Positions 13,308 to 54,900 of a stretch of 64,000 bases of DNA are shown here, in pieces. The DNA is from Brachionus manjavacas (lineage: Eukaryota > Rotifera > Eurotatoria > Ploima > Brachionidae), in the NCBI GenBank assembly GCA_019054805.1, contig JAHQIY010000003.1:5146001-5210000 (forward strand), in the 5' to 3' direction. The position numbers and the translations under genes are program-made. Each line of letters opens with the position of its first letter. Within the stretch, counting starts at the first letter, position 1. The notes under the pieces were generated by a model that did not search any database, was not told where the DNA came from, and worked only from the letters and a program-made list of their open reading frames with translations.

Positions 13308-15764
13308 TTAAAATAATAATCTTGGTTTGTTAATCATTATTTGTTTTGAATCTTCACCAAATTGATTTTTAGCCACGCACTCATAAGCTCCATAATCATC
13401 TGGTTGAGAATACTTAATACTCAAAATATCATTTTTGATTTCTACTCTGCTCGACATCGGCCGTCCGTCAACTCTTCTCCATACAACTTCAGGTCGGGGT
13501 ATGCCAGCTATTACCTGACACCTCACTGATGGAAATTTTCTATAAGCATCAATTATGTCCTGACTCGGACTCGTACTAATTCTGGGCTTCTCAACTCTAT
13601 TTACTTCAATCCGACTATACTTTACATGATAATTAGTATCACTGTAAAATGCTTTGCATTCATAGTCACCACGATCTTCAACTCTTATATTTTTTATGTA
13701 CAAAAAATTATTTTCAGGAATGTGTATTTCTTTTTCTAAATTCATTCCAATTTTTTTCCATTCATATTTTGTATAGTTTGAAGATTTAACACCACATTCT
13801 AAAGTTATGTTTTCGCCTTGGTTGACAAATGTCATTGGTACTGACAGTATAGTCAGTCTGCTCACAGCCCAATTGCTTGATCGACCATTCAATACATTTG
13901 AAACCTTACAGTAATAATTGCCCGCTGAACTTAAATCAACTCGGCTAATTCGAAGTGTTTCTTCGTCTCCTATAAGTTTATCTGATAAATGCCACTCATA
14001 TTTAAGATATTTTCGGTCAACATTCAAATTTTTGGATATAATGCTACATTTGAATTCAATCGGATAGCCTTCATTCAATTTAGGATCTTTGGGTTCTATT
14101 TCTATTTGGTAAATTTCCCTATTTTCTTCCACTTCCAAAATAACTGAATCATTTTTTTGCCACGGATAATCATAGGCAACACATCTTATCTCTCCACTGT
14201 GCTCTTTTTTAGCACCATTTATTCTCAATAGATCATCATAGGCTCTAAAGTTGGAATTTTTGGTCAAACCAATTAAAGTACCATTAAGAAACCATTCTAT
14301 CCTTTTATTCAAACCTGAATTTCCTATTACATTGCACTTAATTTCAGCATTATCACCTTCTGTCAAAACAATTTTCTCATCAAGTATGTGCACACTAAAT
14401 TCTTCGTGTGAAGGCTTTTTTTCCTCGAGATCATAGATTTCTGACTTTGTTTCATATTTGTTCCTCGCACTACATTTATACAACCCGTAAATATCTGTGT
14501 CATTTTTGTTAATAAGAATTTCAAAATGGCTCTCCGGGTATTTTCTAATGGTGTATTTTCCCAAGTCTTTGTCCACTTTAGCCCATTCTAATTCCGGAAT
14601 AGGATATCCGCTTTTGATAAAGCATTCGATGATGTACTTGTCCTTATCCTCATTAAATTCTGTGTAAATCTCAATCGGCTCATACTTTTCTACTAAAATG
14701 TCCACATAATCCTTGATCTGCTGTAAATTGGCATTGCCGAATATGTTCATGCATGAATATCGCCCAGTGTGAATTGGTTGAATGTTTGTTATGGTCATCT
14801 TGGAGCCGTCTCTGGATTTTGAATGATATTCTGAATTCAAAGAACCCTCTTCCAAATACCAGTTTGTCTGAACAGCTGCCTCACTCGACTTGATCAAGCA
14901 TTCCAAGGTTACATTATCATTTTGTTTAAGAACTATACTTTTACCTTCAATTAACCTATCTGATTTTATTTCGATTTCTATGGTTTGCTTTTTATCTTCG
15001 AAAACGTCAACATTTACTTTGGCAATGTTGCTTTTGAGATTTGTGTCAAACGCCTGACAAGTGTACAACCCTGCATCTTGTAAAGATGTTATGGTCAAAT
15101 TTAAGCCTCCTTGTTTATCTATGATCAAAAAGTTGCTCTCTCTGACCGGAGTCCCGTCTTTTCTCCACTCAAACTCTACGTTTCGTAAATCACCATTGTC
15201 TCTAAGTGATTCCAATGAGCAAAACATTTCAATCGTATCACCAATGGCTAGATTGGTCATTTTTGGATAAGTATCTACAAAAAGAGCTTTGTGTTTGTTC
15301 ATTCGAATAACTGCAGTATCTTCAACAAAATGGCCTTCTTTGCTTATTGCTCTACAAGTAACTACCCCATGCAATACTTGGCTTGCGTTTGTTACATAAA
15401 GCTTGTCCCGAGATGACACCAAATTGCTATAAAAGCTTACATCTTTGTCATTAATTAACCACTGAATGTTCTGGATCAAATTTTGATCATAGTCAAAATT
15501 TGGATAAGTTTTGCAGGAAATAACAGTACTTTGACTATCTGTAAGCTCATAATAATTCCTCGTTAGTCTTACCTGTATTTGGTTTTCATTTTTTGACTTA
15601 ATTGTTATATTTAAAGAATTTGTCTCGAATTCTGTTGAAATTGAGCACAAATAGCTTCCTGTATTGTAGTAATCAAAATCTCGAATTTGCATTAGTTCAT
15701 TTTTACGAACCATTTTTTTCGGCCAAGCTTTTTGGTCAGCCCTGTGCCAGAAGATACTCACATT
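13308..15764 (-). CDS. 28-Ig gene, exon 18: end of Ig20, third and fourth four-Ig blocks (Ig21-Ig28), stop
   Basis: A 2,457-bp terminal exon. After the SYLCSIS half of Ig20 come eight Ig domains. The first four follow the A-B-C-D order (CRAISKEG...VEDTA; FEWRKDG, LYTCQAFD; VTLECL, YSCMN; linker VEKYEPIEIYT, GYPIPELEW). The next four repeat the order and are closest to the perlecan block: type C YEWKKIGM, YECKAF against [14 protein letters not shown], and type D PRPEVVWRRVDGRPMS against [16 protein letters not shown]. The coding region ends PRLLF-stop with no transmembrane or GPI-type tail. Confidence 0.85.
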   Translation of the reverse strand, partial: NVSIFWHRADQKAWPKKMVRKNELMQIRDFDYYNTGSYLCSISTEFETNSLNITIKSKNENQIQVRLTRNYYELTDSQSTVISCKTYPNFDYDQNLIQNIQWLINDKDVSFYSNLVSSRDKLYVTNASQVLHGVVTCRAISKEGHFVEDTAVIRMNKHKALFVDTYPKMTNLAIGDTIEMFCSLESLRDNGDLRNVEFEWRKDGTPVRESNFLIIDKQGGLNLTITSLQDAGLYTCQAFDTNLKSNIAKVNVDVFEDKKQTIEIEIKSDRLIEGKSIVLKQNDNVTLECLIKSSEAAVQTNWYLEEGSLNSEYHSKSRDGSKMTITNIQPIHTGRYSCMNIFGNANLQQIKDYVDILVEKYEPIEIYTEFNEDKDKYIIECFIKSGYPIPELEWAKVDKDLGKYTIRKYPESHFEILINKNDTDIYGLYKCSARNKYETKSEIYDLEEKKPSHEEFSVHILDEKIVLTEGDNAEIKCNVIGNSGLNKRIEWFLNGTLIGLTKNSNFRAYDDLLRINGAKKEHSGEIRCVAYDYPWQKNDSVILEVEENREIYQIEIEPKDPKLNEGYPIEFKCSIISKNLNVDRKYLKYEWHLSDKLIGDEETLRISRVDLSSAGNYYCKVSNVLNGRSSNWAVSRLTILSVPMTFVNQGENITLECGVKSSNYTKYEWKKIGMNLEKEIHIPENNFLYIKNIRVEDRGDYECKAFYSDTNYHVKYSRIEVNRVEKPRISTSPSQDIIDAYRKFPSVRCQVIAGIPRPEVVWRRVDGRPMSSRVEIKNDILSIKYSQPDDYGAYECVAKNQFGEDSKQIMINKPRLLF

Positions 15765-18700
15765 CTTTTTGATATAAATAAATTTATTGTCGAAAAAAAA
15801 TTATTTTGAGATGATGGAAATGTGAATTAAAAATATTTTGAGAATTTAGCGACAAAAAATGCTAGTTAAACCATAGAGAAAGATTAATCCTTATACCTTG
15901 AAGATATAAAAAGCAACGTTTACGATTAGAATTGGTATCAATTGAACCGATTTCAGCATTTAATTTTTATAAAAGTTTTAATATTTTTGAGTCGTTTTTA
16001 ACCCGATTGTAAACCGATAAGGATTAAGTAAAAAAGACAGCAGAAAAATTTATTTATTTTAGCCTCTATTCTTATATTTATTTTTGTATTTGTTTGTAAA
16101 AGTACTAAAATAAAAAATTTTTCTAATAAAAAGACCAAAAAACAAAAAAATGTTTATTCAAAGAACTTTTATCTAATATTTCATTAATGAAAGTCTAAAA
16201 ATTAAAATTAACCATTTAATTGATTTTTTAAAAATTTTTGTCTTTTAACATATTTGTTCTATTTATCTGTGTTACATTAAATCATTTAATATTTTTAATG
16301 ACATGTTATAATAAAAATATCCAAAAAAATATTTTTTTAGGCAATAAATTTAATGAGCAGATTTAATGTTATCAATTTAATGAAAACAATTAACCACAAA
16401 TTTTAATAAAATTTTCTCTAATTAAAATAGTTAAATCTTCCACGAAAATAATATATATTACACAAAATTAATTTTTTATACCAAAAATAACAATTAATCA
16501 CTTTTAATGATAAAATTTAATGTTTCAGAATTTTTTTCAATATGAAACAAAAATATACAATCAAGTAAAAATAAAAAATGAAAGATTTTCAAAATTATCT
16601 TTTTTTAAAAAAGTAATGTCACTCAATCGTAAATTAAATCATTGGTAGCCTAAATTTTAGTATGCTTCTTATGAAAAATGCTGTGCTAATTAAATGTATT
16701 AAAAAATACAGTATTTTTTTCTCAAATGGCAAACCAATCTAGGAAAGCGTACTTTCAAATTCTTTCGATGATATCTTATATTTTTTGTTATTCTTTTTTT
16801 ATATAGTTATATGTGAATTTAAAAGAATCATTGTCTTAAAAAACAAATATCTTTTTTTATTTCAGTCATTTTTTTTCAATTATTTTTGTGGAAAAAATTG
16901 GTTAGAAAATGATTTAAAATTTTTGAAAAAAAATTAGTTTACCTGACTTTTTTCGATTGCTAGACTGCACTTCAAATCCAAATTTTCCCCTAAGTCGAGA
17001 TAAATTATTGTGTCAGTGGTCACAACTTCTTTTCTAATTAAAAGATCTGATTTGGTTGATGGCAAAGTTTTAAAAACTCTAGTGGTAGTTGTTGTATAGC
17101 TAGATGTTGAAGTGGTAGTGGTTGTAGTGGTTTTTGTTGTAGTGGTAGTAGTCGTAGTGGATGTTGTAGTGGTAGTGGTAGTAGTAGTGGTTGTAGGGAT
17201 AGAGGTTGATGTCAAAGTTATAGTTCTAGATTCTTCTGATTCAATCTCTAAACTAGTGCTTTCCATTGATGCTTCTCTTGTTGAATAAAAAAAGATGGAT
17301 TCATTCTCGATTTTTTCAGTTGCTTCTGCTGAAATTCTGACTGTATGTAAAAATTCTTGTGACGAATTTAAACTCAAACTTTCAAAAGTATTTAAATTGG
17401 TAGTTGTTTTGTGTATTTCATCCGGAATACTGACTGGCCTATGAGGGGTTTTACCAATTGACAAATTTATTTCCTGAATTTTTGTTTCAAATTTATTTTC
17501 AGCATTGCATTCAAAAGTTATTATATCCTGAGAATCAGTTTTGTCCAAAACTAGCTGAACACCTCCAAACGAAATTTCATTTTGAATAAAATTTACTGCT
17601 GAATTGTTATTTTTTTTAATCCATTTAAGTTTTGGCTCGGGAAACCCTTCGTAGACGCAATCTACAGCTAGATGAGACTCTAATTCATCGACATAAATTT
17701 TTAGCTCAATTGGTTCATATCTTTCAACTTCTATTTTAATGTATTCCCTTACAGAATCAACTTTGGAATCATTTGAATTAGCCAAGCAAATGTATTCTGC
17801 AGAATCGTCTAAATTTGCATTTAAAATTTTAATTGTTGAATTTGATGAAACATAAAAATCCGAAAAACCGGCAATAATTTTATCCGATACCCATCTAGAT
17901 TGAATTTTATGATTTTTTATTTCGTTTGTTATACAATCTATGGTCACATTATCGCCTTGTTTAATTTTTATTGTTTTGTTGTCAATATCAAAATTTGATT
18001 CAAATTTTATTTTTATTTCAATTTTTTCATAAACCTGCATTAGTATTTCATCTTTATTGCTAATTTGAATGTTTTTAGCATCCTTAGCTTGGCAAGAATA
18101 AAAACCAGAATCATCGACTGATGACACATTAAATTGAAAAGTTTCTTTTTTTGAGTCTTGTTCTATTAATTTTCCATCTTTATACCAATTATAAAAAAAT
18201 TGCTGAACCCATAAATTTTTTTTGTTCTTAATAATACAACTGAATTCTGCCAAAGAACCAATTGTTAGATTATTTTTATTTAGAGTTATATCTACTAAAG
18301 GTTCTAGATCATGCGCATAGACCAAAAGCGCACTTGATTCAGCTTTTTTGTTTTCGTAGCCGATTGCTTGACAAGTAATATAGCCATTTAAGTCAATACT
18401 TGGATTTCGAATTCGCAATAAATTACTAAAGCTGTAAAAATTTGGATGATTTGAAATCTCTTTTCCATTAAATAGCCAAATTATTTTAGGCTTTGGATAC
18501 CCATTAGTAAAGCAAGTGACAGTTATTTTGTTTACATTATCCAAATCGATTATTTTGGTATTTATTTCAGCTGTGGCTCGTTCAGGTTTTCCTTTTGAAA
18601 ATTTTTAAATTTTTATTTATTTATTTTTCATTTAGTTTACTTTTAACTACAAGGTTAATTATAACACTTTCTGTTTTCATATGATTTTTTTTTTCTATTT

Positions 18701-21700
18701 GACACTCATATTGGCCTTCATTTTTAAAATCCAAATTTTCTATTTTTAAGATGTTTCCATGGGCTTTTACATTCGGTTGAAATTGTTTTCTAAATTTGGC
18801 TTCCCAATTGAATGTTAATTCATTCTTGATGAAAAAAAATTTGAATTAAAAATTAATTTTTTTAAGAATTCAAAGTTAAAATTATTAAAAAAAATGATTT
18901 AAGCCCTGGTTACAGTGTTTAACTTTTTTTTTAATTAACATTATTTAAGTTTTTTTTTTGAGTATTTTTAATAGATGCATCAATTTTATGTTGCATCTTT
19001 AAAAAAACAAGGTTTTATCTGTTGCTCCGCTGCCAGAATAATAAAAATAAAAGAAAAAGAAATTACTATTGATTGTTTAATTGATTGATTTATTTTATTT
19101 ATTTTTTTGAAAAATTCTTTTTAAAAATTGATTTTAAAGAATTTTTTCATAAGTGTTGATTAATTGATTTAATGAATATTTCTGTACAGTATGTCACAAA
19201 AAGTTAGAATCAAAATTTTTTTTCTATTTGATTGATTTTTGTTCATTATTTCGTTAACTCGGCTATTTCTCTTTTAGTCTTTGTCTGATTTTTCAAAAAA
19301 CATGGAATTTGCCATCTCTGTTGATCAGTTATTTTATTTTTACCCATTTTTTTTCTATTTTGTCAGATTTTTGGGTAGTTTTACTTTAAAAAAGCTATCA
19401 TTTGAAAAAAATTCATAGTTAACGATTTTTTTAAATGCAAAAAAACAATATTTTTATTTTTTTCAACTTGATTCTAACTTTTTGTGACATACTGTACAAA
19501 CAACATTTCTTTAAGAAAAACTTGAATGAATGAATTTCAATGAATTTAAATATTTTTTTCTTTTTATTAATTTTTAATTAAAATTTAAAATTTTTTTTTA
19601 AGTTGTAAAAAAATTAATATATATTATGTAATCTGAAAAAAAATGGATTAAGACGATTATAAAAGCACTTTATTAATAAAGTTACTATTTAATATAGTGC
19701 TTTTATTAGTTTTAAAAGCACAAATATTAAAGTTACTTATCGTAAGTATATGCATGAAAATTTTACTTTTTTTCACACATTTGGGTTTTAAATATTAAGA
19801 TAATTTTTATATACTAGAATGAGACTTTTTAATAATTAATAATTTAGTAAAAAATAGTCTCAAATATAATTTTTTATTCAATTATTGATTTTTATATCTA
19901 AAAATACAACTTATTAGCTTTTTATTGCGTTATCAAATTATTTATATAAAAGTAAGTTAATTTTAAAAGTGAAATATAATTCAAATTTCTAATAGGCACA
20001 TAATTTGAACAACACACAATAAAGTAAAAAGATATCCCAAAACTTTTTTCCTTTTTTCCAAAATAGTATATATGATTTGGTGGTGGTTTTCAATTAAAAT
20101 TGTGAATTTATAACAACTAGTGTATGCTTTTCGTTTGGTTTTTTTAGCTAAAAAAAATTATTAGTTTTGATCTAAGATTTAATTTTTAATTTAAAAACAC
20201 ACATTGTGGTTTTTCAACTAAGTATTTTTTTTTCTTCATAAAATATTTTTTAAAAAGTTACCATAAATTGTTAAGACATTTTTTCACAAATTTTGCTTAT
20301 TTATTTAGAATAAAATGTCCGTTTTAGAAAAGTATATAACAATCATTAATTTTTGGTATAATTTTTTACAAAAATATAATAATAGAATTTGAACCTTGTT
20401 AAATTTATTTCCTTAAATTTTTATAAAATAATTAAAAAAATATTATAGAGAAATTTTATTGAAAAATTTTCTTTTGCGGAACAAACACTTATTAACTTAA
20501 TTATCTTTAAAAAACTCACCTTTTTCTGATTCTATCGACTCAATAATAAGCCTAAGAAAGTTTATCAACAGAGATACTCAGATTATAACTTGCAATTGAA
20601 AATGATGCCTTTGAATTTTTAATGAATAGTAAATAAAGCCTTTACTGCAAAATTATTGGATTTAATTATTGGGGTTTTATAAAGAACTATTCTAAATTAC
20701 GTCAAGTTAAATTTAGTACAAGAAATACAATATAAAATCTTTCATCTTTCTTCTAAAAGTTAAAAATTAGCTCTGTTAGCGCAACAAGATACAATAAATC
20801 GAGTTGCATTTATTATTAAAATCTCTTAATGTCTGCATAGTTAATACATTTAAATATAAAGAAATTAAATTCTTGTGTAAAATGCCAAATATTTGAATTA
20901 ATTTAACAGTGTTCTGTAATTTTTTAGTTTTTAAAAATCGAATTTCAAAAAACTGTTAATTAAAATTTCTTTTTACTTATGATTTCTACGAGAAATTGTG
21001 GTTCAGTTATAAAAATAAAAACAATTGTAATTTTAAATTTAGACCTCTTTTTTAATTGATATCTTTTTTTTTTTTAATTTATTCTATAAATACCTTATTT
21101 AAATGATTAAATGAATTGCAAATTATTTCAATATTTGAACCAGTATGAAACTCATAATTAGCACTGCTATTAATGCTCAAAGTCCAATTAGTAACAACTG
21201 GAACAAAAGTTGTACTAGCAATCGAAGTTGTACTAGTAGTGACGGGAGTGGTTGTTTGAGTTTGTGTTTGATTGGGACCTTGAAAAATAATATAAATTTT
21301 TTGTTGAATTTTATAGTTATTTTATACCAAAGTGAAATTCTTGATGAACATCTTCCAAATCATTATCAGCGATACATTTAAAAGTACCAAAATTATCTTT
21401 AATGGTTTGATCTATTAAAATCGAATAATAATTATAAGGACTTATGATCTCTTCAACTGAATCATCTATTTCTAGGCCATCTTTTGTCCACCTGATGTCA
21501 GGACTCGGCAAACCTTGAACTACATTACAATCAAGTCTAAGGACATTTTTCAAATATGATGTATTTATTTTAATTATTAATGGTTCGTATTTAACAGCAT
21601 AAACATTAATAGCATATCTCACTTCTTCTTGAACTTGAGGTATCTTAACCACACATTCATAACGTCCAGATTGGTTTTGCAAAATACCATCCAAAAAAAG

Positions 21701-24700
21701 TTCTTTTCCGAATTTTTGCGACTGACCATTTAATGTGCTATTAATATTCCAATAAACTTGACTATCATCAGCCTCAGCTTCACATTTCAATGTTACATTA
21801 TCTGATTCCTTAACTACCAGTTTAGAATTCCGATAATCTATTTTATAATTTGATTTGATTGTGGTTGAATTCAGATTTGGAAAAACTTTTATCTTTGAAA
21901 TGGATGACTCACTTTTTCTGTTACCATCGAACACTTGACAACTATAGAGACCACTTTCATTCAATGATTTAGTCTTAAAATTTAATTGACGATGATTGAA
22001 CTCATTTAAAATGATGCTATCCTTAGACCAGACATAGTTTAAGTTTGCCAGATCACCAATATTTGGTTGAATAATATCACAACTTAAATTAATATCTGAC
22101 CCAATTTGAACTATGGCCTCTGGTGGTTGGATTTTAACCAAAATTCTATCATCTTTTACAGTAATTAGTGCGCTATCTTCAGCAAAAATGTTGTCTTTGC
22201 CAATTGCTCGACATGTTACTTCACCATTTGTATCCTCATTTGCATTTTTTATTAGTAATACATTATTTAAAATTTCGAATTTTTTTGTATCATTTATTAA
22301 TTCATTTTTGAATAGCCAAGTGATTTTGGGCATGGGATATCCCGTTATGTTGCATTCAATTGTCTTATTCTGGCCATACGATAGTTCTATGTTTTCATCA
22401 TCTAGATAAGCTGTAGGTTCTGTTATCTCTCCTGAAAAAAATAGTATAAATAGAAATAAAGATAATAAAAAAAGCGTACAATAAAAAATTTTATAGAAAT
22501 GAAAGATCATTTTTTACGATAAATAAATTTGTAAATAAATTTAAATCGAAATTTAAAGATTATCTACATTTTTTAGTTCAACTTGAAATGTAGTGTACCA
22601 CAAAGATCTGTCTTGAGACGTTGCTTTTAATCATTATACAAAAACATATAAAAACGATCTAGCAAAGAAAATGATAATGATACCAAAATTTTCAAGGCTT
22701 TCATAATTAAGTCCTTACCAGAAGATATGAACTCATTGAAAAAAAATTAAATTATAAAAAAATTATTTTTTATCAATTTGATTTTTAAAAAAAGTTGACA
22801 TGATAGATCCTGAATGATGGAAAATTTCCAACTCGTTATTTAACAAGGATGGTTGAGGGAATAGTTTGCTGCATTTTTTGTTTTTTATGATAAATTAGAC
22901 TATCACGGTCTTATCAGTAAACAATTAAAAAAAAAAGTCAATTTCAAGAAAAAGAAAAGCAGAAAATGGTTCGATAAAGAAAAAAAAAATTTTTTTCTTT
23001 ATATAATCCGATTTCGATTTCAGAAGAGGCTGAAGATGTTTTTCTATTTTTAAGAAATTAAGATTTTTAATAAAATTACGCTGAAACTAGTTTAGTTTTA
23101 TTTTTTACCATTTTTTTGCCAAATTTTCCAACATTTTGATCATTTTACAAATAATTTTTAATTTTCACTCACCTTTGATAACGAGTGTCAAAGTAAGAAT
23201 ATTTTCCAACGATTCACCATATTTGCATTCATAATTATCTTGGTTATCTCTATTAAAATTTTTAAAAATCAATTTATTCTTATCTCTATCTACGTTATCG
23301 GTTAATTTAACTTTATTTTTTTTTGTCCAAATATAATCAGATGAAAACTTTCAAAAAATATAAAAAATAAAACAATATTTAAATCTTTATTTTGTTATAT
23401 CTTACATCAATGTCTTTGTTTGTAATACAATACACAGTTAAATCGATGCCATTTTCAAATTCCAATATTGAATCGTCTGTCACAATAACTTGGTGTGACA
23501 TTCTCTCAGTAACAGGTGCAGTCGTAGTCATAATTTCTTTTTCAAATATAATTATTTCTATATTTTTGGGTTTAATTTCATGATTGTCCGATTGACATGT
23601 ATAGAAACCACTATTGTTGAGATGAGTTTTATTGAACAATAAGATCCCATAGTCTACTGAAAATTTTGAATCATTCTCTTTTGACCAGTGGACAGATTCA
23701 TTTAAGGGATCAAAGCATTCAATTTTCAAAAAAGACCCTGATTCGATGTTTATCACATTGTCTTCTATCTCTAAATTCGATGAAATGTTCACACTTTGAA
23801 CAATTTTTACTATGAATGGAACTGTTTTGGAGCCTTTAACCTCATCTTTGACTGTTAAACAAGATATTGAACCATTCATCTCTAACGAAGCATTCTTCAC
23901 CATCAAAATATTACCATTTATTTCAGTACTAAGGAAATTTTCCGCTTTTTGATTATTGATAAGCCATTCTTTTTCTATTTCTTCATCAGTTGAGCAAATT
24001 AATTCAAAACTATCTCCTTGATAAACTTCAATTTTTTCCTTATTAAAACTCGGCTGTATTTTATCATATGGGTTAAAGATGTTAAACTCTAAAGTTTTAA
24101 TCATGTAGTGATACAAAATTCTACATTCGTAACTACCAAAATCTTCCAAACTTATTTTTTTTAATTTTAGGGTTGAAATTTTTGTTAATGGATTAGCACT
24201 GGTAACATAATTTTGAATATCTACATTTTCTTTATTTTCTAACAATTCACCATACTGATCATACCATTGTATTTCTAAATTCTGTCCAAACTCGACCCCA
24301 TTCATTATTGCTAAACAGCTTTGATTGATTGAATCATTAATTTTGGCATCTGAAAAAATTTTCCTTTCCAAAAGACCATTTATTTCAATTTCTCCATTGT
24401 CTACCAAAAAAATGTCAACTTGTGACTCATTAAAGGTGCCGGCAGAACAAACATAACTTCCACTGTTCGTTTGATTAAAATTGATGAACTTTAACTTGTG
24501 GTTCAAAGTTTCAGCATTAGGCTAAATTAAAAAATAAAATTTTAATTGAAAAAAGAAGTTTACAAATTGGAATTTGGGCAACTTTTGGAGATGTGAATGC
24601 TTCTATCATTGCTTAATTTTTATTATTTATTCCTTAATTATAATAACAATTTCTTAATTACAGTATTTAAATGAGTTTCTTAATTAATCAAATAAAAATA

Positions 24701-27700
24701 CTGTTTGGAACCCGTCATAACTATGCCAAGGATAAGAAAATGGAATTTAAAGCATTAGAGTTAATTTTCATTTAATTTTGGACAAGTTTCTTTAAATGAA
24801 ACTTAAAACACATATCTGATATTTAATTTTAAACGATGAATGTTGAAGTTAGGGTTACTATTAGGCGACCAAAAATGAGTTCAAGAAATTATCGAAAATA
24901 TTTTGAAAAATTAGGATAGTCTTTTTGATCTCTTTTAATTTTAAACTTGATTTGATAGAACATAAATTTTTTTTAATTTTTAGAATCGTTTTTATTTAAT
25001 AATTTCATTAAATTTTTATGAATAAAAAGCTATATTTTCTAAATAATTTCTTAAGATATTAATTTAATATAAATCTTAATAAGTTAATTTTAACTTAAAA
25101 TTTTATACATTCAAAGAACCACATAATTGTGTCTGAAATTTTTAATCCATTTAAGGCGTGGCTTAAAAAATAGATGTTTTAGTTTTAAGATGTTAAAGCC
25201 TTTGATTAAAGCTCTAGAATGAAGATAAAAAGAAATCTCGTTCCTAATAAATTGATTTTAAATACTTTAAAAGAAAAGATATATTCGGATTAATGTTTAA
25301 CTTTTAAAAGAAAAAATTGATAAAAATAATAGAAATAATTAATTATTAATAATAATAATAATAATAAGCGATGACAAGCAAGCTTGCGGAGGCGGTCTAC
25401 TAGGAGATCGCCTATGGTAGCACATTACGCAATAAAAGAAAAATTACATAAATAAGAGAAATTGATAAGATTATGTAGTGTAATAGACATAATTGGTAAC
25501 TTTGATGTACAATACAAATAAAAAGTAAAAAAAACAGAAGAAACTGAGAGGGGTATATAATAAAGAAATTAAAAAGAAATATAAATAAAATTTTCATGTG
25601 ATAAAACTTGGTGGCCGATTTTAAAAGCATCGTAGCGATTCTTGAATTGATAAACTGAGTCAGCGGTTGTGACCGCACTTAGGTTGAAAATTAGGTTATT
25701 ATTATAATAAATAATAAATCAAGTAAAAAAACACTTAAAATTACAATTAAGTAAACTTAAAATATAATTCAGTATAAATTTGTTTTCAAAATGAAGTAAA
25801 ATTCAAATTTAAGATCATGTCTTAACGATCGAGAAAATAAAAATAAATAGAAAAAATCATTTTTTTTGTTGATCGTCAATTTTAGTTTATATTTTATCTT
25901 ATATCTTTTATTTTTTTTATTTTTTAGAATAGCTATTTATCAATTCTCAAAGATTAGTAATTATTTTAATTTTTTAATTTCTAATTAAAAAAAAAAAGAT
26001 TTAAAAAAATTGTTCAGTTCACACATATTCAATCGATTTTATTTATTTTTTTTTAATGAATAAAAAAAATATCTTACTTGATCGATTCTTTTCCATTGAG
26101 ATTCCTTGCATTGAAGCGAAAAGTTCGAACCCTTGGCAATGAATATTTCATGTGAATTTACTATGAATTAAAAAATTTTAAATTTAGTTTTTAAATTTTC
26201 TTTTTTACCAATATCAATTTTAAAAGATTTTTTTTCAATTTCGAACGAAGAATCTGAAACATCATATCCCTTGCATTCATAAAGACCCATATCACTTAAT
26301 CCAGCATTGTCTATTTTGTATGAAATAGTTTTCGTTTTTGATGTTTTAATAACATACTTAATAAAAAAATTAATTAATTGAATTTAAAAAAATCAATTCT
26401 ACATTATTCCTGTAAAGAACTAATTTAAATTGACCAATTTGATTCGAAATAGAGCAATTAAATTCAAACGATTCATTTATTTCGAGTTTTTTCACTTCTT
26501 CCGAGAATGAAACATCGATTTTTATAGCTAAATTTAAAAATTAAATTAGAACCAAAAAATACTAATAAATTTATACAATTATCATTAATGATTTCAAATT
26601 CCGAATTTTGAGTTAAATTTGAAACCTGTGACCGGCACTCATAAAAACCAAAATCATCATCCCGTAACTCTTTTATTTTAATAATTGAAATCAGCCTAGT
26701 TTCTTTTCCAGAAAAAAATCTTGTTTCTATTGACACTCTTTCGTTTGATTCCAGTTTCTTAAAAAATTTTAGTTTTTCTTTACCACATGTTTTGTTTAGA
26801 TTACTTGTCGATCTTTCTTTAGCCAGTTAATTTCTACATCATTGCCATCGGTTTGACTGGTACAAGTTTGATGCAAAGTTTCACCAAGTCTTGCTTTAAT
26901 TTTCTTTTTTCTTAATTCAATTTTTGAATTCACTGCTTTGTCAAATGATGGTTGAACAATAAGGTTTATTTTCTGGACAGAAGTTTCTTCTACTTGGCAC
27001 TCGTAATCTCCAGAATCAGTAATTTTTAGACTATCGAATATTAAAAAACCTTTTTTTGATATCTGTGTCAATTTTTCTGACTTAAATTTAAAAAAAAATC
27101 AAATTTTGAAGATCAAATCTTTAATTTTTAGATTACAGAGTCCAATTTAAACCATCTAGCTGCCGATAGGTTCCCCGAACAGTTAAGGATGAATTTTTCA
27201 TTTTCAAATGCAGTTACTTGATCACTGTTTTCGACTAGAACTTTAATAGCTTTGTACTCAAAATTTTGGTAATCGGACGAATTCGCTTGACATAAATATT
27301 CACCTTGGTCTATTTTTGAAAAATTTTTAACACTTATGGACAATGAATTGTTTTTCGTGGAAGATAAAAACTCCTTTAAAAATGTTATATATTTAATTTT
27401 AATTAAAAAATTTAAGAAATACTTTATTTTTGTAAAAAGTAATTGTAGCAGCTGAATACGAATTTAAATGACAATCGAGATTCAAATCATTTCCTTCTTT
27501 TATTTTTATTAATTTTTCACTTGGTTTTAATTCAACATTGAATTCATTTTTTTTTTCTAAAATTAAAATTTATCAATGACATTTTTTGGAAATATTGTTT
27601 CAATTTATTTACTCAAAACTTCTACTTGGATTGATGAAGAGTTAAAAATTCTTCCGTCTGAAGAAAATGAGAAACAAGTAAAAACACCTTGATCGTGTTC

Positions 27701-29028
27701 TTGAGCATTTTTAATGTCAAATTTTACAAAAGATGAGTTAGAATATTTAAGAAAAGTCTATAAAATTTGATTATTTTTTTTTCCGAAATTTAGCCAAAAA
27801 ATATATTTTACTTGATCTTTATAAATTATTGAATAAAGGCCGGTCATTGATCTAGAGATTGACACACACGAAAGAGTAATGCTTTCACCTTGCTCAATTT
27901 TTATTGATTCCTCTGCATTTAAAAAATTTACTTCAATTGTGTGAACTAAAATAAAAAATGTTATTTAAAAAATAAATTTAAATTTGAATTTACTTGTTTT
28001 ATTTTCAATGTCTTGTGATGAAGTACTTTGAAAGTAATTAGATGTTGGCATGTATTCAAAAGTTTCAAATTCTATTGTATTTTCAGTCAAATTTTGGGAA
28101 ATAAAATTTTCTGTTAAATGAGTTGGGTCAGTTACAGAAAAGTTAAAATGAAAGTCTGTAGTATTTTGGTCAAAATTTTCCGAATTTTGTTCAGAATTGT
28201 CTAGTTTTTCTGTAAAATTCTGTTCATTTGAATAAATGTAAGAATCATTTTGAGAGATATCCGATGAATTTACCCAGCTTTCGTTTTCGACTTCAGTTTG
28301 ATTTTTTTCAATCACAATTTGTTCCAAGTTATCTAATTCAGAATCAAATGCTACATCATCTGGCTCATTGGTAGTGTTTAATGTAGTTGTTTCTTTAATA
28401 TTTTCATTCTCGAATTCTACCTCTGGGTTTGTTTCATTCTTTATTTGATTTTCAAATTTTAAATTAAATTCTGAGTTATCTATTTCTTCTGTAGCATTCG
28501 ATTCATTTGAATAAATGAAAGAATCATTATGAGATAAATCCTGTTCAAGTATCAAACTTCCATTAGTGACTTCTGTTTGGTTATTTTCATTCAAAATTTG
28601 CTCCGAATTATCTAATGCTAAATTATCTGTCTCATGGGTGGTGTCTGATGTATTTGATTCATTTGTATTCATATTCTCAAATGTGCCCTCTGGATCTGTC
28701 TGATTTATTATTTGATTTTCAAGTTTTGAGTCAAATTCCGTCTCCGTGCTATCGAACATTTCTATCATATTGTCTTTATTTGGTTCCTCATTTAAATTTT
28801 TATTTTGAGCAAACGCCATTTCATCGTCACCATAAAAATCATAAAAATCAGACAAATTATTTTTATCGGAGGAATCAGATTTTGTGTCAATAGATCCTTT
28901 TCCTGACTAGAAATAAATTAAAATTAGAATACAATTTTTTTCTTAAAATTTACCTCGGAAATTTTTACTTTTAAAAAAAGCATCAACATAAAAGACAATG
29001 ATAAAATTTTTGGCTTGAATTTAGCCAT
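13308..29028 (-). CDS. Secreted 28-Ig-domain perlecan-like matrix protein (18 exons, apparently complete)
   Basis: Exons (5' to 3'): 29028-28954, 28906-27994, 27945-27812, 27757-27613, 27556-27423, 27373-27137, 27080-26805, 26757-26577, 26527-26403, 26356-26209, 26160-26078, 24521-23406, 23347-23173, 22431-21328, 21278-21094, 18824-18641, 18591-16943, 15764-13308. All borders are GT-AG and the summed 9,321 bp stays in frame, giving about 3,106 residues. Order: signal peptide, acidic Asn/Ser/Thr-rich region, then 28 Ig (I-set type) domains with the usual C...W...YxC pattern and three Thr-rich linkers. There are no LDLa, laminin, EGF or transmembrane segments. The Ig sequences resemble those of the perlecan gene on the right, so I infer an extracellular-matrix protein derived from perlecan domain IV. 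Function is otherwise unknown. Exon borders are predictions; the two long introns could hide extra exons. Confidence 0.85.
15765..16942 (-). other. Intron 17 of the 28-Ig gene (1.18 kb)
   Basis: A very AT-rich intron separating the two halves of Ig20 (SLAIEKSQ | NVSIFWHR). No other feature was recognised. The acceptor before exon 18 (ATCAAAAAG) lacks a strong pyrimidine tract, so a few residues of uncertainty remain at that border. Confidence 0.6.
16943..18591 (-). CDS. 28-Ig gene, exon 17: second four-Ig block (Ig16-Ig19), poly-Thr linker, half of Ig20
   Basis: A 1,649-bp exon. Block order is the same as exon 14: type A (GYPKPKIIWLFNG, ITCQAIG), type B (FFYNWYKDG, FYSCQAKD), type C (VTIDCI, YICLANS), and type D after VERYEPIELKI (LAVDCVYEGFPEPKLKW, FECNAEN). 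About 80 residues of Ser/Glu/Thr follow, then a nearly pure Thr run (about 17080-17210, a GTAGTG-type repeat on the plus strand). Next is LDLKCSLAIEKSQ, the first half of Ig20, ending AGTCAG|GTAAAC in phase 0. Confidence 0.85.
17080..17222 (-). repeat. Coding microsatellite for a poly-Thr mucin-like linker
   Basis: An imperfect ACT/ACC/ACA codon run (seen as GTAGTGGTAGTAGT on the plus strand) encodes about 40 residues that are almost all Thr. It lies between the fourth Ig of the block and the split Ig20. It is likely O-glycosylated and likely length-polymorphic because of its repeat nature. Confidence 0.8.
18641..18824 (-). CDS. 28-Ig gene, exon 16: second half of Ig15
   Basis: It begins NELTFNWEAKFRKQF and continues to EGQYECQIEK and the strand INLVVK. 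It ends GTTAAAA|GTAAAC in phase 1; a 49-bp intron separates it from exon 17. Confidence 0.82.
18825..21093 (-). other. Intron 15 of the 28-Ig gene (2.27 kb)
   Basis: AT-rich, with a Tc1/mariner-like MITE at 19187-19494. No Ig half-exon or other coding signal was found, and the exons either side of it already complete Ig15. Confidence 0.65.
19187..19494. mobile_element. Tc1/mariner-like MITE, 308 bp
   Basis: The ends CAGTATGTCACAAAAAGTTA and their reverse complement at the right are nearly perfect over about 27 bp and are flanked by TA on both sides (19185-19186 and 19495-19496). Ends of the type CAGT..GTCACAAAAGT next to a TA duplication are typical of Tc1/mariner elements. There is no transposase frame inside. 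Confidence 0.82.
21094..21278 (-). CDS. 28-Ig gene, exon 15: Thr-rich linker and first half of Ig15
   Basis: It starts after TTCAAG with GPNQTQTQTTTPVTTSTTS, a short mucin-like linker, then NWTLSINSS and IEIICNSF, the first-Cys half of an Ig domain. The donor AATAAG|GTATTT is in phase 0. Splicing to exon 16 supplies the missing Trp and YECQ half. Confidence 0.8.
21328..22431 (-). CDS. 28-Ig gene, exon 14: first four-Ig block (Ig11-Ig14)
   Basis: A 1,104-bp exon with four Ig domains in fixed order. Type A has GYPMPKITWLF and VTCRAIG...AEDSA. Type B has LNYVWSKD and SGLYSCQVFD. Type C has VTLKCEAEADDSQVYW. Type D has the linker VKYEPLIIKI, then LRLDCNVVQGLPSPDIRW and FKCIADN. The same four types recur in exons 17 and 18 and in the perlecan exon 55068-58493 ([17 protein letters not shown]...AEDSA). 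It ends TTTG|GTATAA in phase 1. Confidence 0.85.
22432..23172 (-). other. Intron 13 of the 28-Ig gene with LINE fragment
   Basis: A 741-bp intron. It holds a short reverse-transcriptase remnant on the opposite strand at 22570-22745 and otherwise AT-rich sequence. The hydrophobic N-terminal stretch that precedes exon 14 in the open frame is intron sequence before the TTTTTTCAG acceptor, not a signal peptide. Confidence 0.65.
22570..22745 (+). mobile_element. LINE reverse-transcriptase remnant
   Basis: The plus-strand frame reads SVPQRSVL, a decayed form of the LINE motif S/GVPQGSVLGP, followed after a deletion by DNDTKIFKAF and EDMNSLKK, matching the ADDTKIF region and what follows it. Too short and shifted to be active. 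Confidence 0.65.
23173..23347 (-). CDS. 28-Ig gene, exon 13: second half of Ig10
   Basis: The acceptor GAAAG is followed by FSSDYIWTKKNKVKL and NYECKYGE, completing the Ig10 begun in exon 12. The donor AAAG|GTGAGT is strong and in phase 1, reading on into GEITEPTAYL of exon 14. Confidence 0.82.
23406..24521 (-). CDS. 28-Ig gene, exon 12: end of Ig6, Ig7-Ig9, Thr linker, start of Ig10
   Basis: A 1,116-bp exon. It begins after a TTTAG acceptor with PNAETLNHKLKF and gives the YVCSA half of Ig6. Three complete Ig domains follow (Cys pairs around NQSCLA/YECRI, FELICS/ISCLTV, LKIECF/FYTCQS). A short Thr-containing linker (EIMTTTAPVTER) leads to the first half of Ig10 (LTVYCITNKDID), cut at a GTAAGA donor in phase 0. 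Confidence 0.85.
24522..26077 (-). other. Intron 11 of the 28-Ig gene (1.56 kb)
   Basis: It runs from the GTAAGA donor at 26077 to the TTTAG acceptor at 24522 and contains the 3' end of a LINE (25340-25690) in the same orientation as the gene. No further Ig half-exon is visible, and the two flanking halves already make a complete Ig6. Confidence 0.7.
25340..25690 (-). mobile_element. 3' end of a LINE inside intron 11
   Basis: On the minus strand a C-terminal LINE motif is readable (VTTADSVYQFKNRYDAFK, about 25670-25610), followed by an AT-rich tail, a less AT-rich 3' untranslated patch (GATCTCCTAGTAGACCGCC, near 25395-25415) and a (TTA)n simple-repeat end at about 25345-25370. This is the usual 3' structure of a CR1/RTE-like LINE; the rest of the element is absent through 5' truncation. 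Confidence 0.7.
26078..27945 (-). CDS. 28-Ig gene, exons 3-11: Ig1 to Ig5 and half of Ig6 as half-domain exons
   Basis: Nine small exons (27945-27812, 27757-27613, 27556-27423, 27373-27137, 27080-26805, 26757-26577, 26527-26403, 26356-26209, 26160-26078) encode Ig domains, each cut in two between the strand following the first Cys and the strand leading to YxC. First halves contain motifs such as ITLSC, LNLDC, FILNC, FEFNC and FSLQC; second halves contain VFTC, EYLCQ, DYECQ, FYECR and LYECK. Introns are 40-65 bp. Each domain becomes complete only after splicing, which supports the model strongly. Confidence 0.82.
27994..28906 (-). CDS. 28-Ig gene, exon 2: acidic Asn/Ser/Thr-rich region with internal duplication
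   Basis: About 304 residues with almost no hydrophobic core, very rich in D/E/N/S/T and crowded with N-x-S/T sequons (NQT, NES, NDS, NAT, NFT). Two tandem units of about 88-90 residues are visible: each has ENQI(I/K)N(Q/E)T(D/N)P near the start, NQTEV in the middle and (S/Q)HNDS(F/Y)IYSNE near the end (about 28460-28725 and 28195-28460). The exon ends in phase 1 just before the first Ig. Its place between signal peptide and Ig array matches the acidic stretch of the perlecan gene at 47.9 kb. It may be a heavily glycosylated, extended spacer. Confidence 0.8.
28954..29028 (-). CDS. 28-Ig gene, exon 1: signal peptide
   Basis: The ATG at 29028 opens a 25-codon exon: a basic start (MAKFKPK) followed by a hydrophobic core (ILSLSFMLMLFL), a typical signal peptide. 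It ends with GAG|GTAAAT in phase 0 and joins TCAGGAAAAGG of exon 2, so a Ser-Gly pair lies just after the junction. This is the only in-frame ATG upstream that makes a secretory start. Confidence 0.8.
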
Positions 29029-47904: not shown

Positions 47905-48967
47905 ATGATACTACTCAATTTACGTATTATCCTGCTAGCAGGATTTCTCCTAGTTTTGTCAACGACTGCACATGCTCAAGCAGATTATTACGGAGACATC
48001 TCCATAACTGATGGCGTCAGCGGTAATGAAGTGCCAAGCTCTGATTATTACTATGACGATCATGCTACGTCTGATGGCGTTGCCGAAGTTGCCTTAGAAA
48101 AAGAATCTGAATTAGGCCATAATCAACAATATGATCTTTTAACTGAAGCCAATATCCAGGATCATGATTATGAAGAGCATTTAAATGGTGTTCAGCATAG
48201 CAAAGACCCTGCATCAGACCATGAGACCCAAAATTTAGTCACTGAAAGAACATCACAGAACACTACAGAGAATGATGAACAAACAAAAAATTTGGACTCA
48301 GTAACCGAAGATCAGTTAATTACGGAAACAGACTTGGTTGAAGATTTGAGAAGAGCTGAACATGCTGAGGATAATCTAAATAACAACGAAGACAGTACAG
48401 TCCAAATTACTGAGATTGATGAAAATGGTCAAATGGATACATTGGAAGACGATGAGAATAGTGGAGACTCGGAAACAATTGATTTTAATCTGCAGCCGAT
48501 GGCATTTATTGAATGTGGTCCAGACGAGTTTAAATGTGATTTACTTTGTCTGAATATATCACAAAGATGTGATGGTAACATTGATTGCTTGGACTCAAGC
48601 GATGAGGCTAATTGTGTCGAGATTACGAGTCAATCAATTGAATCTACACCACTACCTATTCAAACTACAACCCAACAAATTGAAACCACCACTCTTGATT
48701 CTTTGCTCTTGGATATTGATCCTGATGTTGAAGAGGTCATCATTCAGGAAAATGGCATCCTCGAATTTTCTTGCCAAGTCAGGGGTCCTTACGAAAATCT
48801 TAATCTCCTAGTTTATAAAGACCAAGAACCAGTTAATCAATCCGATTCTGGTTTTATCAAAATTCGCATTGAAAATGTCAAGCGAAGTGATGCGGGCACT
48901 TATTTATGCTATGGTTTTCCATCAGATAGAAGCAATTATATAGTCAAATCACTGACAGTTAATATTG
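47905..48967 (+). CDS. HSPG2: Perlecan exon 1: signal peptide, acidic GAG region, LDLa1, first Ig
   Basis: I take the ATG at 47905; it is followed by a hydrophobic core ([19 protein letters not shown]). An earlier in-frame TTG at 47890 is not needed. About 160 acidic residues follow, with DDENSGDSE, a classic acidic Ser-Gly glycosaminoglycan site, and DGVSGNE, a weaker one. LDLa1 is [14 protein letters not shown]...[13 protein letters not shown]. After a short Thr-rich linker comes an Ig domain (LEFSCQV, TYLCYG). It ends ATTG|GTAAAC in phase 1. Confidence 0.88.
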
Positions 48968-51900
48968 GTAAACTAGAAAAATAAAATAGTTATTTAAGTC
49001 AGATATTTATTAATTTTTTTATTGAAGCTCAAAGTGTGACAAGACCAAGCTCAGAATCGAGTACTTCAGATGGTCGAAAAAAATACAAAAATGTACCAGA
49101 AGATTCAAATACAGAGATTGAATGTGACTTTTCTAATGAACAAAATGTCAAATGGAAACGACTCGATGATGTGAGATTTTTTTCAAATATAATATTCAAA
49201 ATAAAATCCAACATTTTCTTTTTTTTTTATAGAATATCACTGATTATAGCAGAGAATACAATGGAAAACTATATTTGTATTATTTGAAACCCAAAGACAG
49301 TGGCATCTATGAATGTGAGTTGGAAGATGGCCGAAGGGATGCTATTGAATTGTTTGTTGAAAAAACAATCATACAAGAAAATACTCCAGCAACTACTCGA
49401 ACACCAGCACAAACTACCCAACAAAATCAAGATGAATGTAATTCTTTTATTTTTGTATTAAAATATTTTATCTATTTTTGTATTATAAATTTTCTCTAAA
49501 GATAAATATGCAATAAGAGCTTATCTATCAAATCCGGTTGTAAACTACAAAAGTCAAGACACTATAGAGCAAGTTTGTGAAGCGATGACTAATGCAAACG
49601 AGTTGGAAGTCAAATGGTATGCACCTAGAAGACAAGAAATTCAATCCGGATCAAAATTTGTTATCACCACAACCGAAACGTCTCAAGCTCCATTGGGAAA
49701 ATCTTCCAAATTGACAATTTACGGTGCAAATCCGGCAGATTCAGGATACTATGAATGTGTTGTATTGGTTGGTAGACAGAAAGAAACCGTACAATTTGAA
49801 CTTAAGCACGAAGCCGCAGAAAATAGTAAAAAAGTTAAATATTTTATTTGGTTTATTAACAAATTTTTTTTCAGCACCAAGTCCACCTATTTATGAGACA
49901 CCAGGTAAAACAAATTAACCTGTTTACTCTATGTTTTTATTTTAATCAAATTAGTATGTGACATCGACCAAGCAACTTGCAGAAATGGTGAATGTATTCC
50001 AAGATCGGGTCTATGTGACGGTAGAACTGACTGCTCGGACGGCTCAGATGAATCAAACTGTGGAGGTAGATTTCTTAGTTTGATTTTTCTAATTATTTTA
50101 AAAATAATTTTTTTTAAATAAAAAAATAGGGTCTAGTGATGGAAGTAAGTTAATCATCCAAAATAATAACCTATTAGTTTAATAAATGAATGAATATCTG
50201 ATCCTAACTGTTCTAAGACCTAACCTCCTCACACATTCATACTCACACACATGTATATAGCAGGAAAAAAATTTTACTAATATTTGTTTTTAAGGATGTG
50301 AGCCAAATGAAAAACAGTGCAGAAATCAAAAATGCATCCAAAAAATTTGGTTCTGTGATGGTGAAAACGACTGTGGTGATAATTCTGATGAAGATCAATG
50401 CCGTAAGTTAAAATTTAATTCAATTTAATTTAAATTCTCATTTTTTACCAAAAAACTAAAAGCATACTACAATGGTAAGATGTCAAACGATCCTTAGATT
50501 TAATGAGCTAATTTTAGTATTAAATAGTTGACTCTTATTTCAGTCAACACTTTAGTACTTTAGATGTTTTATTGAAGCATGAAAATATGGTTTCTTTTCA
50601 AGGCATAAGCTGGTCATTTTTGAACTCAAATAGAAGAGTTAAATTTTGACCGGAATATTTCTTTCTCTATTATATTTATAAAATAAAATTAGTTATAGTT
50701 TTAAAATTGTTTGAAAATTTTTAATTAAAATAATTTTTAAACTTAAGCTGAGCCAAGACCGGGTGAAATTTGCAAAACTCACGAGTTCTTGTGCAGAAAT
50801 CAACAGCAGTGCGTTTTAAAAGGTTTCGTTTGTGACGGTGAATATGACTGTTTGGATCAAAGTGACGAAATTGGATGTGGTAATTAAAAAATGAAAATAA
50901 GCAAACTTTTAAAAAATCTAAATTTTATTTTCAAAGAAAAACCTTCAATAATTCGAGGTCCAGTACGCAATGTGACTGTGATATTGGGTCATACGTTCAC
51001 AATTACTTGCGAAGCTTCGGGTTTTCCTGCTCCTTACATCAATTGGCGTCTTAATTGGGGTCACATTTGCGAAGAACCAAGATGTACTTCTTCGAGCGAA
51101 AATGGTTTTGGCACTCTTACAATCACTGATGCAAGAATCGCAGATGCCGGTGCTTATTCATGCGAGGCTCTAAACAGTAAGGGTCGAATTTTTGCCATCC
51201 CGGACGCCATCGTTTATGTAAAAATTGATCAACAAACGACACGTAAGAATTGAAAACTAAAATTTTATTTTTTTAAAAAAAAATATATTAATTTATTTTT
51301 GCTATCCGATTTTCTCTAAACTATTAATTCACCTATTGAAATAATGAGTGAGAGATTTATTTACAATTTTCAAAAAACTTAAGAAACTTTAAAAAAAACT
51401 TTAAAAAACAAAGATTTTTGAGGTCTTAAGGCATATTATCATTATCAAGTCCAATTGGTCTTATAAATTAAATCGAATTTACATACAAAATTTTAAAACG
51501 ATTTAATAAATTGTTTTTTAAATAAATCTAAATACTTTTAGAATGCATAAAAATATTTGAATGTGTCAAAAGATTCAAAACTTGAGTTTACTAATATTCA
51601 AAATTAAACCTCATATTTAGAAAATAAATTTAAATTTTTGACAATTATATCGAAAAAATTTTAATATTTATTTTAAAATTTAAGTTAAACTCTTGGACTA
51701 TGTTGTTTTGTTTATTTATAAACAGACTTGTACAAAAAACAGGAATAAAAAATCCGAACAAGTCTTTTACAAGTCAAAGTCATGACTTTGGAAAAATTTT
51801 AAAAATACAAGTCAATGCTTTGACTTCACTTGTTACTTTTGACTTTTAAACAACTCTAATATTTAATTATTAAGTTTAAGATTAAATTAATTCCCGTTAA

Positions 51901-54900
51901 TTGAAAACTGAAATTAAGAAAATAAGAAAAAGATCAGAAAAAAATTGTGAAATTCGGCACAAATTTAGAGAATAAAAGTTATGAAATTTAAAATTACATA
52001 TCTGGTAGTCAATACTGTTAATGCAACAAGGTCCAACACATTTTATTTCATTATTTACCAAAGTATGGCAAAATAAAGCATTTATTAGAAATTAAATTAT
52101 TTGTTTAACTCATGGATTTTGTCAATAATGCAAAAATTACAAAATTTTCTTAAACACCATTTTTTATGTTTATTTATCTAAAAATGTTAACAAATTTCTT
52201 CAATCTATTTTAGCTCCACCTCCATCTGCATCTCGTACCTGTGATCCAAATGGCTCATACAATCTATACCCACCATGTCAATGTCGAGTAAGAAATAGAA
52301 AATAAAAAAAATAAATAAAGTTTTAAATTAATTTTCATTAGAATTATATAACCGGAACTTATTGTGATCAGTGTCCAGAAAACACTTTCCACTTAGTGGT
52401 TGAAAACCGCAACAGTCTATGCGCCCAATGCTTTTGCAATGGTTTGCGTGTAAATTGCCGATCAAGCAATTTAATCTATGATCAAATAACTTCCAATTTT
52501 GAACAAAACAACGAAGACTGGACCATAAATAATTTAAATAGATCCTTGTCCACAGCTCTGCTGACTAGTGACGGCTCTTTGGAGTTCAGAGATTTTGACA
52601 ACTATCCGAATGAAGATTTCTACTTTTTCGCTCCGTCAAGATACTTGGGCAACAAGCTTGGATCCTATGGTGGAAATTTTAGTTTCAAAATTCGTTTTGA
52701 AGGACCATATGCTACCATGGCTAAAAGACTTCAAGTCAGATTGGGCGGAAATGGTATTATAGTTGTATACAAATATCCAAGATTGATGGATCCATATCAG
52801 AATTATGATATGAATATTTTGATAACAGAAGACGATTTTAGAAAATTAGATGACAACAGTCGAATCGACAGAGAAACATTGCTTATGGTACTGGCCGATT
52901 TGGACTCAATGGCAATCAGTGCAAGCTTTTTAGACAAACAATACTCAGTAATTTTGAGTCAAGTGTCATTTGACCATGCCGAAAGAGCAGCATACCATTC
53001 GGGTCAAAAGGCCCTTGCTGTCGAAACATGTGATTGTCCAGTTGGCTACACTGGAAAATCTTGTGAAGTATTTCAACTCTATTTATTAATTAATTTTATT
53101 CTAACTTAATTATTAAGTCATGTGCTCCAGGCTATAAAAGATCAAGGACCGGCTATTACTTGGGTCAATGCGAAAAAGACAATCAGATATCCATTAATTT
53201 TGAGAATATTCCGCCAAATAATGTAATAACTTTAACTCCAGGTGAAAATCATGTGGTTTATGTAACTGTGGTAGGTGTTGGCGACTATGTCAGGTGGGTC
53301 AAAGAACCAGAAGGCTATTTGCCACCAGGTGTTTCACAGGAATACAACAATTTGGTAATTCAAAACGCACGTCCTGAGATATCTGGTAATTACACATGTT
53401 ACATTACGACTCCAAATGGTCGCTTGGAAAAAGTGCTCGTGATCAATATTCCGCGCGAAACAGTCACCCGACCGCCTGTTATTTACAGTCCAAACTCAAA
53501 GTCTATCCAAGTAGGCCGTGGCGAACCATTTAGTTTGGAATGTTCGGCGATCGGAGACCCACGACCATCTGTGCGAATTGAAGCGCCAAAGAATCCATAT
53601 ATATATGAATTCAGAAGTCCATTAATTGAAGGTCAGCAGCAATCCGAGGCTAAATTTGAGGTAAACTATTTCACAGAAGCAAATGCTGGTACTTACTACT
53701 GTATCGCTGACAATGGCATACAAGTAGTCGAAAGATTTGACGTTGAGCTAAAAACCGGCTATCCACCATTTATACAAATTTATCCAAAAGATATAGAAGC
53801 TTATGAGGGCTCGTCATTAACAATCAATTATACAATTACTGGAACTCAGCCTGTACGAATAAAAGTCAAATTGTACTCAGCCACAGTCCAAGGCGAACAA
53901 ATTGAGAGCATTAAAGTCGACAAGGATACGAATACAATCATGATTAGACAAATTAATAAGGACATGGAAGGACAATATTTGATAGAAGCCAGCAATGATT
54001 ATGGATCTGTACAAGATTATTTTTCTCTGCGAGTCTTGGAAAGTAAGTCTACATTTAAAAATTTGCAAAAGGGTAGATGAAGTTATGCAAGGATAAATTT
54101 TTTTTTTCATTAAGAAATTTTTAAATAATCATTTATTTTCACTTTAATTTTCCGCAAATATATACAATCTACTAAATAGAAGAGGACCATTTCACATTTA
54201 GTCCAGATTCAGAGTCTTATAAAAAAACCTTATTTTTCTCCAAATATTAATGTTTCCTTTTTAACCAAATCATTTTTAATTCTATATATTTTGTTTGATA
54301 CTTCAATTTTTCAAATACTTAACTAAAATAAATCTTAAAGGATTTAAAAAAAAAAATATTTTTAGGTTTTCAAAATCGTCTAAGAGGCCAATATTTAATT
54401 GATAAATTTTAGTTTTTTTTTCATGAATAGGAGTGTAATTAATTAAAAAAATAAAACATTTGTGGTGTTGCAAGAAAAAATTCTTTGAATAAAAATAAAA
54501 GAACAAAATCATATCTTTTTAGTTAAATTTAAATTCTAAAAAAAAATTTAGATTTAAAACCTTTGATTGCATTTTAGCATCTTCTATCCGAATTCGCTAG
54601 GATTTTAAATATAATTTAGGAAATTAAGATAATTATAAAAAAATTGATTTTTCTTACTGATGAATAAATTTAGTTTCTGCAAGCGAACTTTTGGAATTTT
54701 TTGTTTCATCTTTAAAAATTAGTAAAATTACATTTAAAAAATATACCAAATTAACCAAATTTTAAGTCTTTAAATAAGTCTTTTTTTAATTCTCTGTTAA
54801 GAGTAAGATAAATTTAGTAGAATTAAATTTTTAATTTAAGCTTTTCAATTTAATCATTAACTTAATCTACCGCTTAATTTCCCTAAATAAGACAAAGTAA

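Follow-up and report, generated by a model that had tools for sequence, protein, structure and literature searches.

We examined a 64,000-nucleotide stretch of the rotifer Brachionus manjavacas genome (hereafter the window; contig JAHQIY010000003.1, here C3, as C3:5146001-5210000; GC content 27.5%) and searched a genome of 114.17 Mb in 61 contigs for relatives of what it encodes. The window holds two genes rich in immunoglobulin (Ig) domains, which diverge head to head with their starts about 19 kb apart: a perlecan gene on the plus strand, and a minus-strand gene whose 18 exons are spanned by a single open frame in our splice model (Table 1). The latter is built of Ig domains that recur in a fixed order, and its relationship to its neighbor is the subject of this work.

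Table 1. Positions of the two genes, their Ig domains and related genes elsewhere (window numbering unless a contig is given)
Feature	Position	Strand	Remarks
Whole minus-strand gene	13308..29028	-	18 exons, predicted 3,106 aa, 28 Ig domains; splice models and Pfam
Exons 1-2	27994..29028	-	Signal-peptide-like start, acidic Asn-rich region with DFYGDDE; composition, no Pfam match
Ig m1, type P1	27614..27943	-	Type profiles
Igs m2-m3-m4, first P1-P2-P3 triad	26587..27548	-	Profiles; m3 intron as in p2; P2 weak by sequence
Igs m5-m6-m7, second P1-P2-P3 triad	24075..26577	-	m6 placed by order and intron position
Igs m8 and m9	23544..24065	-	m8 A-like, 43 bits to A profile; m9 best B, 25 bits, type unsure
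Ig E1	23174..23501	-	Phase-0 intron in B-C loop; preceded by short linker with TTTAPVTE
Exon 14, block 1	21328..22431	-	A1 22423-22157, B1 22144-21881, C1 21862-21596, D1 from 21595
Exons 15-16, Thr-rich linker 2 and Ig E2	18642..21278	-	E2 phase-0 intron in B-C loop
Exon 17, block 2, linker, first part of E3	16943..18591	-	
Block 2 domains		-	A2 18583-18317, B2 18304-18032, C2 18028-17726, D2 17725-17453
Exon 18 first half, rest of E3 and block 3	14424..15764	-	Phase-0 intron before rest of E3
Block 3 domains		-	A3 15584-15300, B3 15287-15000, C3 14987-14691, D3 14690-14424
Block 4, A4-B4-C4-D4	13332..14405	-	Without E, without YEP linker
Perlecan	47905..64000	+	Runs past window end; LDLa, Ig p1-p3, three LDLa, Ig p4, laminin-B/EGF, many Ig, weak laminin-G
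Perlecan E-A-B-C-D	55364..56812	+	Followed by Thr-rich linker
Perlecan block domains		+	pE 55364-55645, pA 55673-55939, pB 55958-56236, pC 56264-56530, pD 56540-56812
Second perlecan-type gene	C3:3302431-3315756	+	P2/P3-type Igs, YYYRPET repeats, three LDLa, p4-type Ig, laminin-EGF, laminin-B
Domain-IV-type gene	C1:2016093-2011895	-	p8, E, A, p14-like, unsure, p16, unsure, p17

Two divergent genes and their modules

Exon ends were fixed by splice signals and open frames in a home-made splice model, which returned exactly the ends initially annotated for exons 14, 17 and 18 (22431-21328, 18591-16943 and 15764-13308); this agreement is partly non-independent because the codon table was trained on long frames of the window, the tested exons among them. 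Pfam, run on the entire minus-strand protein in five pieces, matched nothing in its first 329 residues (the acidic region), only Ig-type families beyond it, and no non-Ig domain anywhere. LDL-receptor class A (LDLa) repeats, laminin-B with laminin-EGF modules and a C-terminal laminin-G (domain V) have no match in it, whereas perlecan has LDLa repeats in sets of one and three, laminin-B with laminin-EGF at 92.6 bits, and near its end a weak laminin-G match of 24.1 bits against a cut-off of 22.9, in a segment pieced together by eye out of two frames. The two genes nevertheless start alike. Judged by eye and by composition, each opens with a signal-peptide-like stretch followed by an acidic region, and DFYGDDE of the minus-strand gene resembles DYYGD and DYYYDDH near the start of perlecan; the start codon and signal peptide of the minus-strand gene are likewise by-eye calls. 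Candidate SG sites for heparan-sulfate chains number one in the first 340 residues of the minus-strand protein (the only SGxG site of exons 1-2, SESGKGS) and two in the first 300 of perlecan. Intron 15 of the minus-strand gene carries a 316-bp stretch (19183-19498) resembling a miniature inverted-repeat transposable element, with perfect 31-nt inverted ends.

Recurring Ig units

The initial annotation had described four blocks of four Ig domains, A-B-C-D, in exons 14, 17 and 18, and one such block in perlecan exon 55068-58493. Type statistics and profiles bear out the ordered blocks, whose 16 A-D domains in the minus-strand gene each have two Cys and at least one Trp and lie where Pfam places Ig families. 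What had been missed is a further domain, E, that precedes blocks 1-3 and the perlecan block, so the four-Ig unit gives way to a five-Ig unit, E-A-B-C-D. Block 2 and E3 are separated by a 138-residue Thr/Ser-rich linker, and the gene ends in Ig D4. Other details were partly right: a linker given as YEPI for three of the four blocks is present in blocks 1-3, as YEPL in block 1 and YEPI in 2 and 3, and is missing from block 4 and from perlecan; domains of one type are indeed related, but the motifs said to mark the types are uneven, with GYPxP..WLF only in A1, A2 and perlecan and neither A mark in A4. The claim that the protein is built almost only of the block was too strong, as 19 of its 28 Ig domains (20 with m8) lie in E-A-B-C-D units and seven in N-terminal repeats.

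The relatedness of types was measured across five blocks, the four of the minus-strand gene and that of perlecan. The mean shuffled-alignment Z was 9.66 for domains of the same type, versus 3.82 for unlike types compared between blocks and 3.96 for those sharing a block, and none of 200,000 within-block permutations reached the same-type value. When each A-D domain was left out and scored with eight type profiles, 19 of 20 chose their own type, the exception being perlecan C, which prefers B; the leave-one-out set also included 21 perlecan segments added by regular expression, some surely not domains. The straight A-B-C-D pairing was the best of 24 in seven of the ten block pairs. In the domain tree, same-type grouping, which the initial annotation had expected throughout, holds for D (one clade, 96/80) and most of A (four of five together), while B splits 3+2 and C 2+2+1; A-D domains from one and the same block never pair with each other, so the opposite pattern, grouping of neighbors, is absent. 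Identity per domain between blocks is 15-42%, implying that the amplification events are old or that the gene evolves fast. E was also considered as a copy of perlecan p14, since both follow a Thr-rich linker behind D, and this was rejected: Z scores of p14 with E1, E2 and E3 are 5.4, 4.6 and 3.7, versus 5.6, 8.3 and 6.9 for pE.

The first seven Ig domains of the minus-strand gene read P1, P1-P2-P3, P1-P2-P3, which is the N-terminal order of perlecan. In held-out ranking P1 came first in four of four cases and P3 in three of three, and p2, m3 and m6 all have a phase-0 intron at one site, immediately behind the C strand. The extra A-like domain m8 (24065-23799), which the initial annotation had also overlooked, falls inside A in the domain tree; together with m9 it is possibly a degenerate extra block or the remnant of one.

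Origin of the minus-strand gene

We consider it probable that the minus-strand gene arose as an inverted paralogue of perlecan, has since diverged, lost modules and multiplied two Ig stretches, and encodes a matrix rod. The N-terminal order, the intron of p2, m3 and m6 and the similar starts together indicate a duplication of perlecan in full or, at the least, of the 5′ portion that reaches through domain IV. After duplication, the LDLa, laminin-B/EGF and laminin-G modules would have been lost, the N-terminal triad doubled, with one additional P1, and the E-A-B-C-D unit of domain IV tripled together with its Thr-rich linker; a final A-B-C-D that lacks E, and possibly an eroded A-x copy, would complete the chain. 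That the blocks are related to perlecan and were amplified as a unit, as had been proposed, is upheld by alignments, permutations, profiles and the block tree.

Several results weigh against this scheme or its regularity. Both gene models are ab initio and known here from DNA alone, one of four in-frame variants was adopted for the 5′ part of the minus-strand gene, and domain borders were set by hand. P2 is weak: its held-out ranks are 3, 11 and 2, m6 and p2 score higher with profiles of other types, and the profile score of m6 favors E. C ranks first in only two of five hold-outs, A4 stands beside C1 in the domain tree, and a B/C-swapped pairing is preferred between perlecan and blocks 1 and 2, as is an A/C-swapped one between blocks 1 and 4. 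The match of E to pE is also weak in sequence, with a first rank for only one of four held-out E domains; against the E1-E3 profile pE reaches 33.7 bits, under another perlecan segment at 35.5, and the domain tree places E1-E3 with B4, pB and m6, and pE weakly with its neighbor p8.

How the blocks multiplied bears on the alternatives. The initial annotation had expected the perlecan block at the base, which the data do not establish: an unrooted tree of concatenated blocks separates {block 4, perlecan} from {1, 2, 3} with support of 100/99, and block 4 pairs with perlecan in the trees of B (76), C (95) and D (98), A alone giving no resolution (53). A mosaic origin of A versus B-C-D was dropped for that lack of resolution. 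The split fits perlecan as an outgroup, in which case block 4 would have been the earliest to branch off, and an altered block that had gained the YEP[IL] linker and was preceded by E would then have multiplied to three; it is also compatible with two ancestral blocks. Those pairings thus also suit a perlecan ancestor that had at least two E-A-B-C-D blocks before the duplication, all but one of them since lost from perlecan, as does perlecan p15, which scores 41.8 against profile B and 40.1 against profile C, on a level with several true members when left out. We regard this history as rather unlikely: the outgroup scenario predicts the identical tree, A on its own gives no resolution, and a second strong A or D is not seen in perlecan, where p14-p18 score at most 19.2 (A) and 21.4 (D) and, among the best four listed outside them, A reaches at most 32.0 in p4 and 31.3 in pC, and D at most 29.2 in segment q29.

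The origin first suggested, in which perlecan gave only a four-Ig block to a different or new gene, where it was then amplified, would account for that block being the best-conserved part common to both genes, yet it is improbable, as the N-terminal triad order and P2 intron kept by the minus-strand gene point to a larger duplication and E adjoins A in perlecan, in the minus-strand gene and in a related gene on contig C1. We give almost no credence to chance or convergence, that is, to ordinary I-set domains from a protein resembling titin or hemicentin, alike only as all Ig domains are. All the domains are I-set-like, B and C are hard to separate, and titin is the best PDB match of the profile, though the comparison with solved structures, where 552 distinct Ig-type sequences match with titin first, is uninformative on kinship. 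Against such a coincidence, the four blocks led the search with the perlecan block by almost 38 bits in a genome with at least 150 I-set matches, domain order is kept, and the permutation result contradicts it unless the hand-set borders biased that test.

A putative matrix rod and its perlecan relatives

The minus-strand protein contains 75 N-glycosylation motifs where 45.7 are expected from composition (z 4.8), and its Ig part alone 55 versus 37.2 (z 3.4); perlecan without its last part has 33 versus 43.9 (z -1.8). Linkers of 15, 27 and 138 residues hold Thr runs, which, with the motif excess, suggests a sugar-coated flexible rod. An AlphaFold model of block 4, computed with the five blocks aligned, is all-beta and consistent with four Ig folds (mean predicted local distance difference test score 85), and its predicted template modeling score of 0.43 leaves the inter-domain angles unfixed. 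From the missing perlecan modules we infer secretion, a matrix location and the loss of partner-binding roles: the product would be a long flexible rod, its roughly 28 Ig beads set apart by mucin-like spacers and bearing many N-glycans, and it may space, hydrate or cross-link the matrix without perlecan's partner-binding modules. A diverged sister copy would then illustrate how a matrix protein can be remade into a rod that is almost purely Ig and probably rich in sugar, and would serve as a natural experiment on which functions of perlecan depend on LDLa, laminin-B and laminin-G and for which the Ig chain suffices.

Perlecan (HSPG2; UNC-52, Trol) is the closest known system. The minus-strand gene shares its N-terminal Ig types, E-A-B-C-D order, acidic N terminus and long Ig chain, the array matching in type and order, and differs in its repeated N-terminal triads and domain-IV units and its enriched N-glycosylation motifs. 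In the A-band super-repeats of titin (PMC10665226), too, Ig-fold domains recur as whole ordered series; the minus-strand blocks, however, match perlecan best in this genome. Titin is an intracellular muscle protein, and Ig proteins of the titin/twitchin type carry FN3 and kinase domains, neither of which Pfam matched in the minus-strand protein. Hemicentin has an N-terminal VWA and C-terminal G2F/EGF domains; these have no Pfam match in the minus-strand protein, which is not a hemicentin. Hemicentin too is a long Ig array of the extracellular matrix (PMC6453901). A description of an Ig-only perlecan paralogue was not found among the titles and abstract beginnings listed from open-licence papers.

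Two further genes of this kind lie elsewhere in the genome. The one at C3:3302431-3315756 has a p4-type Ig 62% identical to that of perlecan and ends soon after laminin-B; some exons of its model are spurious and cover a retroelement, and a reverse-transcriptase frame like that of a long interspersed nuclear element (LINE) lies on the opposite strand in a predicted intron. In the gene on C1, E has a phase-0 intron in the B-C loop and B-C-D is missing or replaced. The two look like halves of another perlecan. In Trichoplax, perlecan parts are likewise carried by two genes, with a very long array of 40 Ig modules across both and, in the authors' view, no segregated central set of Ig modules (PMC4398486); there, perlecan itself is in two pieces, whereas here a perlecan with all main modules stands beside relatives, one with ordered block amplification. 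Six pattern matches in viral contigs included no relative.

Perlecan and at least three related genes, one almost wholly Ig, would mean that modules can be shed and multiplied separately. More tentatively, and with somewhat more doubt than confidence, we suggest that this lineage made perlecan a family of four genes or more (perlecan with its full set of main modules, the Ig-only minus-strand gene, the N-terminal-half gene on C3 and the domain-IV gene on C1), with E-A-B-C-D a recurring building block, multiplied in the minus-strand gene, present once in perlecan and reduced to E-A on C1, and with the Ig-only member a new class of matrix rod that gained N-glycosylation.

Other features were seen along the way. 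Another Ig-rich gene, at C22:1058409-1099822, has four units about 11.6 kb apart whose I-set domains score identically, which looks like recent tandem amplification. Between the two window genes, a plus-strand frame at 31150-33420 has no Pfam match and looks by eye like a multi-pass membrane protein, and one at 38162-39694 (+) has a RING match under the cut-off. A generic COX1 query matched only C21:121419-121928, in a 667-aa frame that by eye resembles a bacterial terminal oxidase subunit I; with its oxidase-like neighbors and 34% GC, it may be DNA of bacterial origin within the assembly. A bdelloid spliced-leader sequence had no match in the genome. Fragments of reverse transcriptase that look LINE-like to the eye lie at 9967-11872 and 40108-41737. 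A PIG-X gene (6492-7313, 92 bits) has a copy, near-identical by eye and with an interrupted frame, about 12 kb off and outside the window (L011 4809-3989), and a TIR-domain frame (77 bits) follows shortly past the end of perlecan, at 77773-78294 in window numbering carried onward.

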